Source: Gammaproteobacteria bacterium
Lineage (GTDB): Bacteria; Pseudomonadota; Gammaproteobacteria; Pseudomonadales; Pseudohongiellaceae
Assembly (NCBI GenBank): GCA_002711845.1
Contig: PASF01000013.1
Span: 62,001 to 126,000 of the forward strand
Reading direction: 5' to 3'
Length of the DNA stretch: 64,000 nucleotides
Part shown: positions 22,123 through 29,385 of the stretch, in pieces
Position numbering within the stretch: the first letter of the stretch is position 1
How the letters are laid out: every line of letters begins with the position of its first letter
Notes under the pieces: generated by a model
Told to the model about the DNA's origin: nothing
Database searches by the model: none
What the model saw: only the letters and a program-made list of their open reading frames with translations
Made by a program: the position numbers and the translations under genes

Positions 22123-22770
22123 TCACAGCAAGGTCGGTTTGGGGTTGAAGTAGTGCGTTCCCTGAGGGGCTGTCATGATCTGGCTGACCAGTTGCTGGTA
22201 GTCCTCGTCATGGCTTATGAGATCCAGGTCGGTGCTGTTGACGATCAGCAATGGAGAACGGTCGTAGTAATGGAAAAACGACGTGTATGCCTCGTTTAGG
22301 CGGCTCAGGTAGTCGGCCTCTATGGTTTGTTCGGCAGCGATGCCACGCTTCTGGATGCGCTGCAACAATACCTGCGTTGGCGCCTGCAGATAAATGACCA
22401 GCTCCGGCACGGGCGCATCAATGGTCAGGTGCTGATAGACGTTCTGGTACAGCAGGAATTCGTCCGGGTCCAGATTCTGGCGGGCAAACAGCATATCCTT
22501 GTCGATCAGAAAATCAGCGACCCGAACCGGCTCAAACAGGTCATCCTGCTTCAGATCCTGCAGTTGTTGCGCGCGCTGAAAAAGGAAAAACAGCTGTGTT
22601 GCCAGCGCGTGCTGTTTGGGGTTGCGGTAGAAACGTTCGAGAAACGGATTGTCTTCGGGCTTCTCGAGCACAATGTCGTAATTGAAGGTTTCTGCCAGGC
22701 GTTTGGCAAGGCTGGTTTTGCCGACGCCGATCGGGCCTTCAACTGCGATGTAGTGTGGTATGCGGGCCAT
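22123..22770 (-). CDS. Deoxynucleoside kinase family protein
   Basis: 215 residues. A P-loop [16 protein letters not shown] lies at ~12-27, a lid/Arg region around [11 protein letters not shown] follows, and [14 protein letters not shown] matches the deoxyadenosine/deoxyguanosine kinase family. It phosphorylates deoxynucleosides (or related small nucleosides). The start codon overlaps the pcnB stop (TGATG), so translation is coupled. In related genomes folK lies between pcnB and this gene; here it is absent. Exact substrate preference is not readable. Confidence 0.88.
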
Positions 22771-24332
22771 CAGTCGGCTGACTCCGGTTTGCGTGGTTTG
22801 CGCCGGCGCTTACGCGGCGCTTTGGTACCCTGCAAGGCATCAATCATGGCGTTCTGCGCGCCGGCATCTACCTGTTGAAAACGCGTCCACCAGTCACCCA
22901 GACCGTTCAGCTGTTCACCCGCTGCCTCGCGCAACAACAGGAAGTCATAGGCAGCGCGAAAGCGGGGGTGGGTGAAGGCAATTTCAACACTGCGCCGGTT
23001 TCGCGGACTCAGACGTAATTGCAGTTCCCATATTTCCCGCATCATGGCGGTGAAGCGCTTGGGTATGGCGGTGTATTTTAATTGTTCAACAATGACATCG
23101 CCAGCGCATTCCTGCAGCGCGCCCAACGTCGGTGCCCGATTGCCGCTACTCTGACGCAGTGCGTCCTGCAGCGGCGGCCATAGCAGTGCCGCGTACATAA
23201 ATGCTGGCGTCACCGACTTGCCTTCGGCCAGGCGATTGTCAGTGTTGCGCAATGCCAGGGTCAGCAATTTGCCCTCGATGGCTTTGCTGACGGCATCGTT
23301 GTTGTCATCGTGCAGACAAGCCAGGGTTGGCCGGAACAGGTAGTCTGCGACCTTGTAACGGCGCAACAGGTCGAAGGTTTTCTCGGCACTGCCATTGGTA
23401 AACAGTTTGACGGTTTCATCGAACAGTCGGGCAGAAGATATCGATTCCAGCAGGTCGGCCAGCCTGGGGATAGGCTCTTCGGTGTTTTTCTCGATACCAA
23501 AGTCGAGCTTGGCGGCCAGGCGGATGGCACGCAGAATTCGAACCGGGTCTTCGCGATAGCGGGTTTCCGGATCGCCGATCATGCGAATCAGTCGCTGTTC
23601 GATATCGGGCAGACCGTTGACAAAGTCCAGCATCATGAACTGGTTGGTGGTGTAGTACAGGGCATTGACAGTGAAGTCGCGGCGAACCGCGTCCTCAGCG
23701 ATATTGCCGTAGACATTGTCGCGCAGGATCATACCGGTGCTGGAATGGGCGGAATCAAGATGCTTGATGTGCTTGCGTGATTCGCCTTCAGTGACTTCGG
23801 TTTCAATTTCGTGGTGGGCACGGAAAGTTGTGACTTCGATAACCTCGCGGCCGTAGCGAACATGCACGATCTTGAAGCGACGGCCGATGACGCGAGAGTT
23901 ACGGAACAGCTCACGGACTTCTTCGGGTGTTGCGTTGGTGGAAATGTCAAAATCCTTTGGGTGCCCGCCCAATAAAAGATCGCGGACGCCACCGCCGACC
24001 AGAAAGGCCTGAAAGCCGGCATCATTGAGTCGGTAAAGAACTTTCAGCGCGCTGGGTGAGATATCCTTGCGCGATATATTGTGCTGCTCCCGAGGGACAA
24101 CGGTGACCTTGGTGACGTCGATATCCAGATTGAGTTTACGCAGGTCATCAAGAGGATCCGATGTTTTCTGGTGGCGGCGCGGCGGCTGCGCCGACTGACG
24201 CGTGCTGCGTTGGCCGCGTGATGATTTGTTGCCTGGGCCGTCAGCAGGTTTGGCGGGTGCGTCTGGCCTGGTGGTGTCAGCGTCAACCTTGCTGGTTTTA
24301 CCAAAAAGCAGTCGAGTAAGCTTTTTTAACAT
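22770..24332 (-). CDS. pcnB: Poly(A) polymerase I
   Basis: 520 residues. The nucleotidyltransferase core contains FLVGGGVRDLLLGGHPKDFD followed by DIST (catalytic Asp pair) at ~115-140. Next come RRFKIVHVRYGREVIEV and DPVRILRAIRLAAKLDF, the tRNA-nucleotidyltransferase/PcnB RNA-binding region. A long basic tail (GTKAPRKRRRKPRKPESAD) is typical of PcnB and argues against a CCA-adding enzyme. The N-terminal ~75 residues are basic and low-complexity. It adds poly(A) tails that promote RNA decay. The leader lies directly behind the crcZ region, as in Pseudomonas. Confidence 0.94.
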   Translation of the reverse strand: MLKKLTRLLFGKTSKVDADTTRPDAPAKPADGPGNKSSRGQRSTRQSAQPPRRHQKTSDPLDDLRKLNLDIDVTKVTVVPREQHNISRKDISPSALKVLYRLNDAGFQAFLVGGGVRDLLLGGHPKDFDISTNATPEEVRELFRNSRVIGRRFKIVHVRYGREVIEVTTFRAHHEIETEVTEGESRKHIKHLDSAHSSTGMILRDNVYGNIAEDAVRRDFTVNALYYTTNQFMMLDFVNGLPDIEQRLIRMIGDPETRYREDPVRILRAIRLAAKLDFGIEKNTEEPIPRLADLLESISSARLFDETVKLFTNGSAEKTFDLLRRYKVADYLFRPTLACLHDDNNDAVSKAIEGKLLTLALRNTDNRLAEGKSVTPAFMYAALLWPPLQDALRQSSGNRAPTLGALQECAGDVIVEQLKYTAIPKRFTAMMREIWELQLRLSPRNRRSVEIAFTHPRFRAAYDFLLLREAAGEQLNGLGDWWTRFQQVDAGAQNAMIDALQGTKAPRKRRRKPRKPESAD

Positions 24333-24385: not shown

Positions 24386-24420
24386 TGGCATAAAGACCCA
24401 TAATACACTGAAGTGCTGGC

Positions 24421-24450
24421 GCTTTGCAGAGATTTGCAGGGATTTGCAGG
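24421..24450. repeat. Three tandem 10-base repeats before pcnB
   Basis: Plus strand GCTTTGCAGA, GATTTGCAGG, GATTTGCAGG (on the transcript side, CCTGCAAAT-type units). They lie between the G-run hairpin at the end of the crcZ region and the pcnB leader. The ten-base period places each copy on the same DNA face. Function unknown. Confidence 0.5.
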
Positions 24451-24462
24451 GAGAAATGCTCT

Positions 24463-24708
24463 GGGGGGTGACTCGACCCCCCCGCAAGGAAGGTATTTGA
24501 TTATTTTTATTATTATTTCTTTTTGTTCTTGTTCAGGGGGCACCAAATTTAATGCCTGAGTTCTAAACAGTACCCGTAGCCGTCAGCAACTTGCTGATCC
24601 ATGTCTACTTGCCCGTTTTGATTATTTTTATTGTTTTTCTGCACCCATATACATGCGATTTTTATTGTTATATAGCGTTATTGTTATTGTCTGTTTTTAT
24701 TCTTATTA
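24463..24708 (-). ncRNA. crcZ: CrcZ-like small RNA (Hfq/Crc-sequestering)
   Basis: The RNA is transcribed leftward from a sigma-54 promoter between cbrB and pcnB, the exact Pseudomonas crcZ location. The minus strand contains five A-rich clusters of the AANAANAA type: plus coordinates 24692-24707 (AATAAGAATAAAAACA), 24676-24690 (ACAATAACAATAACG), 24656-24669 (AACAATAAAAATCG), 24616-24638 (core AACAATAAAAATAATC) and 24496-24533 (AACAAGAACAAAAAG then AATAATAATAAAAATAATC). In Pseudomonas such motifs bind Hfq with Crc and relieve catabolite repression. The 3' end is uncertain: a GGGGGGT/ACCCCCC hairpin at 24463-24482 is the nearest candidate but lacks a U tract, and the RNA may run further toward pcnB. 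No long ORF competes. Confidence 0.85.
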
Positions 24709-24808: not shown

Positions 24809-24855
24809 TGTTACCAAAACACTCTTGTGCTGTGTGTAGATGGGTATCGGTAACA
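24809..24855. promoter_or_regulatory. Putative CbrB upstream activator half-sites
   Basis: TGTTACC (24809-24815) and GGTAACA (24849-24855) are exact inverted copies, about 100-147 bases upstream of the predicted crcZ start, a normal distance for a sigma-54 enhancer. As I recall, the CbrB site is TGTTAC-N14-GTAACA; here the half-sites are 35 bases apart, two helical turns more than 14. They overlap the region just after the cbrB stop codon. Confidence 0.5.
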
Positions 24856-24862
24856 GTTTGTC

Positions 24863-26266
24863 TCAGGCTTGTTTCTTTTTGCGGGGCAGGCCAAAACGCT
24901 GGCGTCGCTCCCACAGACATTTGCGGCTGATGCCCAGTTTTTTGGCCAGTTGCGTTTCATTCATCTGGTCCTGGTGCTCGAGGACAAATTTCTGGAAATA
25001 GTCTTCCAGTGACAATTCCTCGGCGGCGTCACCGTCATCACCGTCGCCCGGACTTTCCAGGTTGCGCTCAAGCAGTGAGCGAATGGTACGCTTGCTGCCA
25101 CTCAGATCGATGGCCAGCAACTCGGTGCCAATGTCTTCGTCCTCTGCCAATACCACTGCCCGCTCAATGGCATTTTCCAGTTCCCGGACGTTGCCGGGCC
25201 AGGGGTAAGTGGAGATAGCCTGCGTGGCTTCCTCGGTAAAGCGCAGCATGGGCGATTTCAGGCGTTTACAGGTTCGCGACAGGATGGCATCGGCCAGTTC
25301 CAGAATGTCATTGCCACGCTCTTTCAGCGGTGGCAGCAGTAGCGTCATGACATTGATCCGGTAATACAGGTCTTCACGGAAATCGCCATCAATTACCAGC
25401 TGCTTGAGGTCCCGGTGGGTAGCAACGACCAGGCGCACATCCACCTTGCGTGATTGCACTGAACCGACTTTGCGTATCTCGCTCTCCTGCAGGACCCTCA
25501 GCAGCCGTGCCTGGGCCTCCAGCGGCAACTCACCGATCTCATCCAGAAACAGGGTGCTGCCGCTGGCAGCTTCCACCAGGCCGGTACGGTTGGCTGTGGC
25601 GCCAGTAAAGGCACCTTTTTCATGTCCGAACAGTTCGGATTCAATCAGGTTTTCCGGAATGGCTGCACAGTTGACGGAAATCATTTCGGATTCGCGTCGG
25701 TCGCTCAAGCGATGAATGGCGCGGGCCACCAGCTCTTTGCCAGTGCCTGATTCGCCGTTGATGAGGACGGTAGAGCTGGTCAGGGCGACTTTGCGGATGC
25801 GGCGGAACAGTTCCATCATCTGCGGGCAACTGCCGATCATGCCGGGTACGGGAGGCTCGGGTGGTGGTTCCAGGGATTTTGCTGCCGGTTGCCGGCTGGC
25901 ATTTTCCTTGATGATGCGGGCGACCGCCTGCAGCATTTCTTCATGTTCAAAGGGTTTGGGAATATAGTCAACCGCGCCCATTTTCATGGAGTCGATGGCC
26001 GAGCGCAGACTGGAGTAACTGGTCATGATCAGCACGGGCGTCCGGGTTGCCTTGATCAGGTCAGTGCCCGGTGCCCCTGGCAGTCGCAGGTCGCTGATAA
26101 CGATATCAAACTGTTTGTCACCCAGTTGTTCAATCGCCTCTTTGACGGAGCCGGCTTCGCTGACGTCGTACTCGTGGCGCTCCAGCAGCCGGCGAAGTGC
26201 GGTGCGGATTACCTGTTCATCCTCTACAACCAGAACTTTGTGCTGTGCAGTCATGTGTGTACTCAT
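24863..26266 (-). CDS. cbrB: Sigma-54-dependent response regulator CbrB
   Basis: 467 residues in NtrC order. Receiver domain (~8-125) with DIVISDLRLPG carrying the phospho-Asp and DYIPKPFEHEEM the conserved Lys. AAA+ domain (~145-370) with GESGTGKELVARAIH (Walker A), EKGAFTGAT (sigma-54 contact loop) and LFLDEIGELPLEAQARLLRV. C-terminal Fis-type helix-turn-helix (NETQLAKKLGISRKCLWERR). It activates sigma-54 promoters; by synteny and family the main target is crcZ just downstream. It follows cbrA by 31 bases. Met5 is an alternative start. Confidence 0.93.
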   Translation of the reverse strand: MSTHMTAQHKVLVVEDEQVIRTALRRLLERHEYDVSEAGSVKEAIEQLGDKQFDIVISDLRLPGAPGTDLIKATRTPVLIMTSYSSLRSAIDSMKMGAVDYIPKPFEHEEMLQAVARIIKENASRQPAAKSLEPPPEPPVPGMIGSCPQMMELFRRIRKVALTSSTVLINGESGTGKELVARAIHRLSDRRESEMISVNCAAIPENLIESELFGHEKGAFTGATANRTGLVEAASGSTLFLDEIGELPLEAQARLLRVLQESEIRKVGSVQSRKVDVRLVVATHRDLKQLVIDGDFREDLYYRINVMTLLLPPLKERGNDILELADAILSRTCKRLKSPMLRFTEEATQAISTYPWPGNVRELENAIERAVVLAEDEDIGTELLAIDLSGSKRTIRSLLERNLESPGDGDDGDAAEELSLEDYFQKFVLEHQDQMNETQLAKKLGISRKCLWERRQRFGLPRKKKQA

Positions 26267-26297: not shown

Positions 26298-29225
26298 TTA
26301 CGTGTATTTTTCATCATAACAGGGAAAACTCAAGATTACTCGTGTTCCAGGGTAGTCCTGATGCTGCGAGGCATTCATTATATCAATATGGCCATCGAGG
26401 TTTTCAACCAGGCTGTAGACCAGCGCCAGGCCCAGACCCGTGCCGTCGCCAGGCTCCTTGGTGGTGAAAAAAGGCTCGAAAACGCGGTCTTTGAGTTCAT
26501 CGGGAATACCGGTGCCTTCGTCGCTGACGCTGATCTGCACGGAAGCTGCGATGCGCTCACAGTCGATGCTGATGGTGCTGTCGGGCGGACTGGCATCGCG
26601 GGCGTTATTGATCAGGTTGACGAGGATCTGCAGCAGTTGTTGCGAGTCACCCAGCAGGCGCGCATCGTCCGTACACTGCACGTCAAAACGGATTTCCTTG
26701 CCCTTTTTATTGAGTGAAACCAGGGTGATCGCTTCGTCGACACACTCGGCAATACTGACAATTTCGCGGCGTTGCTCGGTCTTGTTGTGACTGCCGCTGT
26801 GCGCAAAATTGACCAGCGACTGCACAATGCGTGACGTGCGGTCAGTCTGTTCGATAATCTGCCTGGCCATGGTCCGCAATTCGTCATTCTGGGTCTCGTC
26901 ACGGATATTCTGGGCCAGGCAGGCGATGCCGGTAATCGGGTTGCCGATTTCGTGCGCGACCCCGGCCGCCAGTCGGCCGATGGAGGCAAGGCGCTCGCTG
27001 TGTGCCAGCTCCTCTTCCAGTAACTCGGTCTCGGTCAGATCTTCCAGCAGCACGATGACGCCGTCCTGGCGTATGCGCTGGCTGGCTGACTTTTCGATGA
27101 CCGCTTTGTGGAGACTGATATAACGTTTGCTGCCCTGCACATTGATAGACTGTTTGTGCAAGTGCGCGGACTCCGCACTGCGGAAATTGTTGATCAGGCT
27201 GTACCAGGGTTGGCCGATTTCACTGATGTGCAACCCCACGGCCTCGTCACTGTTGAGGCCGGTCAGGGTGGCCATGGCGTGATTCCACATCACGATCTGA
27301 TCTTCCGGCCCCAGGGAGCACACGCCCAGGGGCAGCTCCATCAGGATCTGTCGGTGATAGCGCCGCAGGTTATCAAGGTCGGACGCCATGCCTGACAGGT
27401 TGCTGCGGTACGCTTCTATGCGGCTCTCAATGGTGGTGACATCGGTGGTGCCGGGCTCGCTGTTGGATGAGAAAGGCAGAAAGCGGTCAATCAGGTCGTG
27501 GGCGATGGCCGGACCCAGCAGCCCCGACAGGTTGGCCTCCAGACGGCTGCGGAGCAAACGCAGCGAATGCGGGCGTGTGTCCTGACGCTCCATGTTGAGG
27601 TCGCGCAGCGCCTGCATGACTTCGCGGGTGGCGGTCCGTTCGCCCAGCGGTTTGGTCAATTGGCTGATGAACTCTTCCGGCGATGCGGCGCGCAGCCCGG
27701 CGCGCCGCTGGCGACGCAGGTTGTCGACAGAGCAGATGTCAGCAGAAATACGCTCTTCCTTGGAGCTGCGTGTCATCACCGACACCAGCATGAACATGGC
27801 AACATTGCAGACCAGCGACAAAGCCACTATTTCCCGTGTGTTCAGGCTATCCAGCGTGACAAAATTGGTGCCTGCGATCACCGGCAGCACCAGGAACAGC
27901 ACCCAGATTGCAGTGCCGATGGCCAGACCAGCCATGAATCCCTTCTTGTTGCCGCGAGGCCAGTAGAGCAGGGCAATGATGGCGGGCAAAAATTGCAGAC
28001 TGCCGATCAGGCCGATATTGCTGACCGCCCGGATACTCTGGTTGTCGCTGGGCATGTAATAGAACAGGAAACCGCCCCAGATCAGCGCGGTAATCAGCAG
28101 GCGGCGCTTCCACAGTAGCCAGCGATAGATGTCCTGTTTGGCGGTGGGTTGCCAGACCGGCAGGATCAGGTGATTAAGGCACATTGTCGACAGCGCCAGG
28201 GTAATGACGATAATCAGCCCGCTGGCGGCAGACAACCCGCCGATAAAGCCGATCAGCGTAAACAGCTCTGAGCCGTAGTCCATGCCCAGCGTCACGGTGA
28301 AATACTCCATGGGACTGGCGCTGCCGGCTTTCAGCCCCGCCCACAGGATGGGCAGTACCGGCAGGCTGAGCAACAGGAAATACAGTGGCAGGCCCCAGCT
28401 GGCAATTGTCAGGGCACGAGGGTGATTGTTCTCGTGAAAGGTCATGTAAAACATTTGCGGGGTGGCGACGGCGGCGGTGAAAAAGACTAGCATCATTACC
28501 TGAAAAGTGCCGGGCGCCGCCGGCTCTTTGAGCTGTCGCAGCAGCTCGGGCTGTTCCCGCAACCACTGATCCATGGCATCCATGCCGCCAAAACCGGTAT
28601 ACACCGCGAACCCGCCCACCAGCAGCAGGGCAACCAGCTTGACCAGCGACTCGAAGGCAATGGTCATGACCAGACCTTCGTGGCGTTCTCTGCCGGATCC
28701 CTTGCCGGTGCCAAAAAAAATCGCAAACAGAGTAATCAGAATGCAGAAACTCAGCGCCAGTGTCGTCTGCGACGCATCCGGCGACAACAGGCCGACAATA
28801 TTGGCCACAGCCTGAATCTGCAGTGACAGCAACGGCATCACGCCCATCATCATCACCAGCGTGGTCAATGTGCCCGCCCAGGGGCTGCGGTAACGGAATG
28901 CCAACAGGTCTGCCAGTGAACTGAGCTGGTAGGTTTTGGTCAGGTTCAGAATCGGGCGCAGATAGATGGGAGATAGCAGGAATGCCAGCGAAATGCCGAT
29001 AAAGGGGGCCAGATAACCGAAGCCATCACGAAAGGCGTTGCCGGTGGCGGCGAAATAGGACCAGACACTGGCAAATACGCCCAGTGACAACACATAAACG
29101 ATCGGGTGCCGGACAATTTTTTCCGGAATCCAGCCTTTTTCGGTGATGAACGCGATACCAAACAGGATGATCAGGTAGCCGATCCCGATGGCAAAGAGTG
29201 TGCTGAGTTCAAAGCTCATCGACAT
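26298..29225 (-). CDS. cbrA: CbrA: sodium/solute-symporter-fused sensor histidine kinase
   Basis: 975 residues from ATG 29225; the next in-frame ATG (29219) is also possible, and the longer frame to 29306 overlaps cbrX. Residues 1 to ~490 form a sodium/solute-symporter-type bundle of about 13 helices. A PAS domain follows ([20 protein letters not shown]), then HisKA with [20 protein letters not shown] and an HATPase domain with [10 protein letters not shown] and [20 protein letters not shown]. There is no receiver domain. The kinase should phosphorylate CbrB in response to carbon/nitrogen status; the transporter part may sense or carry histidine-like substrates, as in Pseudomonas. The ATG lies inside the end of cbrX, so translation is probably coupled. 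Confidence 0.93.
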
Positions 29226-29385
29226 TCTGTTCCCGATATGCCCAGGCGGCCAGCGCGATGACGGCAAAGCAGACCACAAAGGGCCGGTACCAGGCACCGT
29301 CTGCATTCAGGGCCCAGTCGACGCTGAGCAGGAACAGCAGATAGGTAAAGACCAGAAAAATCAGTGTTGATGGTGGTATATACAT
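29209..29385 (-). CDS. cbrX: Small membrane protein CbrX upstream of and overlapping cbrA
   Basis: 58 residues from ATG 29385 to TGA 29211-29209. It begins MYIPPSTLIFLVFTYLLFLL and contains a second hydrophobic segment RPFVVCFAVIALAAWAY, so two membrane helices. It ends YREQNVDEL. Its stop codon lies 14 bases beyond the cbrA start at 29225, a translational-coupling arrangement. Pseudomonas has a small ORF, cbrX, in the same place and with the same overlap, on which I base the name; I have not aligned the sequences. The function is unknown beyond coupling cbrA expression. Confidence 0.75.
   Translation of the reverse strand: MYIPPSTLIFLVFTYLLFLLSVDWALNADGAWYRPFVVCFAVIALAAWAYREQNVDEL

Follow-up and report, generated by a model that had tools for sequence, protein, structure and literature searches.

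The gap between cbrB and pcnB of a Pseudohongiella genome is likely to encode a decoy RNA that is driven by CbrAB and titrates Hfq, probably without Crc. The sequence-level basis of this reading consists of the anatomy of the locus, its conservation, the presence of hfq, the failure to find a pseudomonad-type crc, and A-rich motifs at the starts of some target genes, and from these we infer transcription, activation by CbrB, Hfq binding, titration and a physiological role. On poor carbon sources, CbrA would phosphorylate CbrB, which in turn would activate the sigma-54 promoter at 24734-24720. Transporter and catabolic mRNAs with A-rich sites at their ribosome-binding sites would then lose Hfq to the CrcZ-type decoy RNA and could be translated. 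CrcZ of P. aeruginosa is described as having six A-rich stretches and as titrating Hfq, its RNA-binding partner (PMC4063720). Since no pseudomonad-type Crc co-repressor was found, the decoy in Pseudohongiella probably works through Hfq alone. The features of the locus are listed below by their positions in the window, the whole stretch of 64,000 nucleotides that was analysed.

29209..29385, minus strand: cbrX-like small ORF of 58 residues, upstream of cbrA
26298..29225, minus strand: cbrA (membrane sensor kinase), start chosen by reading
24863..26266, minus strand: cbrB (sigma-54 response regulator)
24850..24855, minus strand: CbrB-type forward half-site TGTTAC (half-site sequence as given in PMC6296734)
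24809..24814, minus strand: CbrB-type reverse half-site GTAACA (half-site sequence as given in PMC6296734)
24734-24720, minus strand: sigma-54 promoter TGGCACGCTTCCTGC by sequence match, predicted start at 24708
24708 to about 24453, minus strand: predicted CrcZ-type RNA of about 256 nt, its start placed from the sigma-54 site; supported by the Rfam CrcZ match and by the arrangement in 16 genomes; 3' end uncertain
24693..24707, minus strand: AAN cluster 1
24677..24688, minus strand: AAN cluster 2
24658..24669, minus strand: AAN cluster 3
24621..24638, minus strand: AAN cluster 4
24516..24533, minus strand: AAN cluster 5
24500..24514, minus strand: AAN cluster 6
24458..24495, minus strand: 3' block, TACCTTCCTTGC (24484-24495) and then a G7/C6 hairpin (24485-24458), with stem and lead-in invariant and loop variable in 16 aligned genomes
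22770..24332, minus strand: pcnB

The original prediction had claimed the synteny of Pseudomonas crcZ and a sigma-54 promoter ahead of A-rich clusters in an organism outside Pseudomonas. In agreement with this, the cbrX-like ORF, cbrA, cbrB, the gap and pcnB follow one another on the minus strand, TGGCACGCTTCCTGC precedes the clusters, and the host belongs to Pseudohongiella, a genus of the Pseudohongiellaceae in the Pseudomonadales (NCBI taxonomy). The cbrX-like ORF extends 17 nt into cbrA, counted from the chosen start, and the cbrX/cbrA overlap of P. putida is given as 17 nt as well (PMC6591292). CbrA matches a Pseudomonadaceae-like CbrA over its full length at about 50% identity; a Pfam scan finds its kinase and PAS domains as well as the domains of CbrB, and gives no match for the symporter part of CbrA. 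The pair is a CbrA-type sensor, with a symporter-like part and a kinase, next to a sigma-54 response regulator. The predicted RNA lies directly downstream of cbrB, where a sigma-54 promoter and CbrB-type half-sites are recognised by sequence match alone, and carries several A-rich clusters of the Hfq type on its sense strand. Five such clusters had been predicted; they are real and on the minus strand, but their number is six when a cluster is defined as (AAN)4 or longer. In two pairs, neighbouring clusters are separated by just 1 or 4 nt, and the count falls to five if either pair is taken as one. A chance origin of the clusters is excluded, since the 530-nt gap holds six (AAN)4+ runs in the sense and none in the antisense direction, as compared with a mean of 0.15 in dinucleotide shuffles, of which 0 of 2000 reach six. 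In 864 kb of the 3.59-Mb genome, 41 such runs are present on both strands together, and outside the cbrB-pcnB gap every 260-nt stretch of the scanned 864 kb holds at most one.

No Rfam match at the gathering threshold was found within the 64-kb window, and so a search by E-value was relied on instead. The Rfam CrcZ model (RF01675), which the original prediction had proposed as a check, matches 24690-24432 on the minus strand over its full length (model positions 1-398) with an E-value of 2.3e-8, and this match is the single one in the whole genome; its score of 38.2 bits, however, is far under the curated cut-off of 95 bits. The RNA is best called CrcZ-type by its anatomy and falls outside RF01675 in its curated form. 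Its end had been placed at 24463, which cuts through the hairpin at 24485-24458, and the conserved block ends near 24453. A terminator scan for a canonical U-tract or terminator gave 0 sites, as did a sigma-70 site scan, and the 3' end is uncertain because no U-tract follows the hairpin. The stem of the 3' hairpin is free of any variation, and pairing reaches 95% of cells in one small stem and only 53-60% in the remaining internal stems. The covariation score of the drawn helices is no higher than that of shuffles, with 75.8% of cells paired, a value reached by 15 of 500 shuffles. The score below the Rfam cut-off, the lack of covariation support and the lack of a canonical terminator count against the decoy reading. 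Three short tandem repeats of the CCCTGCAAAT type lie 3' of the hairpin at 24421-24451 and vary among near relatives. Between the hairpin and pcnB, a CAGTGTATTAT stretch at 24400-24410 is kept in many relatives and may belong to a pcnB promoter, with no call there from the consensus scan.

RF01675 matches are present in 24 of 56 genomes, the host genome included, two of them above the cut-off. Within the genus, 14 of 15 genomes have a match, and in the fifteenth, a single-contig genome (G008), the RNA is present on direct reading. The alignment covers 16 of 17 Pseudohongiellaceae loci, drawn from three genera, L007 being left out because the end pattern did not catch it. All 16 have the same arrangement with four to seven AAN4 runs per locus; the sequence and length between clusters drift, in contrast to the conserved clusters and 3' block TACCTTCCTTGC-G7...C6. 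This common arrangement, together with the Rfam match, the synteny, the promoter and the CbrB-type half-sites, bears out the predicted identity as a CrcZ-type RNA. The TACCTTCCTTGC element directly 5' of the hairpin is invariant in all 16 genomes across the three genera.

Like Pseudomonas CrcZ (RF01675; P. aeruginosa CrcZ), the RNA is placed directly behind cbrB with a sigma-54 promoter and CbrB-type half-sites, and it shares six A-rich stretches and a 3' hairpin with the P. aeruginosa RNA. Unlike P. aeruginosa CrcZ, which is 407 nt long, its predicted length is about 256 nt, and it differs from Pseudomonas CrcZ in a score below the Rfam cut-off, a G7/C6 hairpin without a U-tract, and a genome in which no pseudomonad-type Crc was found. 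CrcY and CrcX of Pseudomonas are described as further RNAs of the CrcZ kind under CbrB (PMC8871633), whereas the Pseudohongiella host genome has one match only.

The original prediction had spoken of a complete module for relief from carbon catabolite repression and had asked for hfq and crc in the genome: hfq is present, but a pseudomonad-type crc was not found in it, and so a complete module is not supported. Because the host genome (G000) is 99.98% complete, a missed crc gene is unlikely. Between rph and pyrE, crc is absent in 9 of 9 Pseudohongiellaceae genomes read, in which rph and pyrE adjoin less than 100 nt apart; a Crc-like gene is present at pyrE in G054, G053, G035 and G041. G000 encodes two ExoIII-family proteins, of which the nearer Crc homologue (L035/L142) gives 302 bits to PDB 2jc5, which we take to be Neisseria NApe, versus 258 bits to Crc (4jg3); the genuine Crc of G054 (L037) gives 531 bits to 4jg3. 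By sequence, the homologue is a member of the ExoIII-like family, as are Crc and Neisseria NApe. Unlike Crc, it keeps the catalytic nuclease motifs QETK, GDWN and SDHAP and is without the Crc assembly residues R140, E193 and R229/R230, where it reads G, L and V-P. The gene of this NApe-like homologue lies away from pyrE, and the homologue is present in 14 of 15 genomes of the genus, the exception (G005) being 72% complete. In a tree, the pyrE-linked proteins group together with a support of 92/93, which is not decisive, and all 15 Pseudohongiellaceae proteins in the tree fall outside; four of 33 rows (one from the Pseudohongiellaceae genome G024 and three pyrE-linked) and L149, one of 30 candidate loci, were left out of it. 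The best candidate of the CrcZ-positive G029 (100% complete) is a 151-bit match of ExoIII rank, and no NApe-rank match was found in the CrcZ-positive genomes G029 and G020, the latter 90% complete.

Two ways of recognising Crc were rejected. The Crc profile score was not accepted on its own: seven pyrE-linked Crc-like proteins outside the query reach 299-353 bits versus 247-316 bits in the genus, and the four highest scores belong to members of the query itself. The R140 patch alone was discarded as a diagnostic, since G046 and G024 have RRKRRE with intact nuclease motifs; these ExoIII-like proteins (L144 of G046 and L131 of G024) may be intermediates.

It is conceivable, albeit unlikely, that the Crc function is kept, with the NApe-like homologue or an unrelated protein as co-repressor, in which case the module would be complete but disguised. 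The protein is a Crc homologue found throughout most of the genus, its profile score alone does not set it apart from pyrE-linked Crc-like proteins, and E193 itself seems dispensable, as P. aeruginosa Crc with E193A and R230E is reported still to repress (PMC6422490). The same source, however, reports that R140E and E193R abolish repression, and the homologue is missing R140, E193 and R229/R230. Its intact nuclease motifs, its gene away from pyrE, its better match to NApe, its place outside the pyrE-linked clade and the mere ExoIII-rank match of G029 also argue against a retained Crc function. The absence of crc, which had been named beforehand as refuting, is read as marking a variant without Crc, on the ground that in P. 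aeruginosa CrcZ has Hfq as its RNA-binding partner. According to PMC4063720, CrcZ was at first believed to sequester Crc and later to sequester Hfq. A lineage with CrcZ and Hfq and no recognisable Crc would make the Crc-versus-Hfq question directly testable, as a natural test of the real partner of the RNA, and points to Hfq-based carbon control in bacteria for which, as far as the open-access literature shows, it had not been reported earlier.

hfq is present in 13 of 13 genomes, and 58 of the first 65 residues of Hfq are identical to those of the Pseudomonadaceae-like G054. In one P. aeruginosa assembly, Thr49 of Hfq is described as hydrogen-bonding Ala78 of Crc (PMC6422490). Position 49 is occupied by Ala in all 5 CrcZ-positive Pseudohongiellaceae read (hfq loci L060, L056, L058, L059 and L061) and by Thr in all 4 crc-bearing genomes, but also by Thr in G015 and G021, two Pseudohongiellaceae without a CrcZ match; two of the 13 Hfq proteins were not located for this comparison. 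Ala49 fits a loss of the Crc contact, as judged from few and related sequences. Residue 28 is Ser in the CrcZ-positive Pseudohongiellaceae read versus Asn in the four crc-bearing genomes, which counts against the decoy reading.

In G000, (AAN)4 stands at -35 to +15 of the start in eight of 718 called genes; other windows give 0 to 2 and shuffles 1.5. The CrcZ-positive G201 has it at 3 of 316 starts (0.5 when shuffled) and G093, a genome without a CbrA match, at 8 of 331 (2.6 when shuffled), and so genome-wide enrichment at starts was rejected as unspecific. A looser pattern picks out 14 genes in G000, several of them transporters or catabolic enzymes by reading, of which four proteins were Pfam-scanned. 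Three candidate targets were followed over 16 genomes with an 11-base AAN motif at the start, in counts that include G000, which was chosen for the motif, and close relatives. The motif is present in 9 of 9 genomes having the Nuc_H_symport transporter gene (eight by script and one, on a truncated contig, by reading), in 7 of 9 for the GMC oxidoreductase and in 7 of 16 for the SNF transporter, and in 0 of 41 located control starts of seven other genes (65 given). On these counts, some transporter and catabolic genes keep A-rich motifs at their starts from species to species, though not in every case. The unspecific start enrichment and the absent or short motif in 9 of 16 SNF and 2 of 9 GMC starts count against the decoy reading. 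In place of a catabolite-repression switch, the RNA could act under CbrAB as a general sponge for Hfq or as a stress RNA, a reading to which we give little credence: the weak enrichment, seen also in the genome without a CbrA match, speaks for it, and against it the promoter and synteny tie the RNA to CbrAB and the followed-up motif sites belong to two transporters and an oxidoreductase.

Of 293 genomes of the order, 215 have CbrA-type proteins (E <= 1e-100) and 59 have an RF01675 match, 14 of these above the cut-off. Loci behind cbrB were read for a strict TGGCA-N8-GC site followed by at least two AAN4 runs within 500 nt. Of 67 loci started, five were dropped with the cbrB end absent; 61 of the remaining 62 show this anatomy, with 291 sense and 0 antisense runs. 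Forty-four of the 62 had been selected by an Rfam match and are not independent; among the 18 without a match, six of them from Pseudohongiellaceae, 17 show it, and the exception (G040) has AAN runs and no strict sigma-54 site. When runs are counted from the cbrB end instead, few are antisense (7 in the 62 loci). A second set without Rfam matches, from which 4 of 20 loci were dropped, gave 12 of 16, with 66 sense versus 5 antisense runs over 1000 nt. Both sets without a match taken together, 29 of 34 genomes, hand-picked from the listed CbrA matches and not random, show the anatomy right behind cbrB. The strand bias in both sets, the different phases of the clusters with no reading frame open through all of them, and intercluster lengths that differ from species to species make an AT-rich DNA element or a small coding gene a highly improbable explanation of the clusters, even though short ORFs overlap parts of the region.

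In the class, a CbrA match at E <= 1e-150 is present in 41 of 370 genomes, 37 of them outside the order, and 0 of 19 CbrAB loci outside the order show the anatomy in the 1000 nt read behind cbrB, one having a single run. A 2022 review describes CbrAB with the conserved cbrA-cbrB-crcZ order as unique to Pseudomonadaceae and known only from Pseudomonas and Azotobacter (PMC8871633), and no contrary report of CrcZ or CbrAB elsewhere was among the matches listed from the open-access literature. By the sequence evidence, CrcZ-type RNAs are not confined to Pseudomonadaceae and extend to further families of the order, and beyond it CbrAB is found without the RNA behind cbrB; the new elements are this wide occurrence within the order and a host family that yielded no Crc. 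An evenly balanced wider proposal is that CrcZ of Pseudohongiellaceae controls Hfq alone with no Crc, that CbrAB is older and wider than the RNA, that CrcZ arose in Pseudomonadales, and that Crc was a separate addition or a later loss. Within the order, the CbrAB loci L314, L319, L321 and L327 (G166, G051, G156 and G068) are without a CrcZ-type RNA directly behind cbrB. In L162, L163, L166, L174, L310 and L316, two tandem units of a sigma-54 site and AAN clusters lie behind cbrB, as if CrcZ had been duplicated in place.
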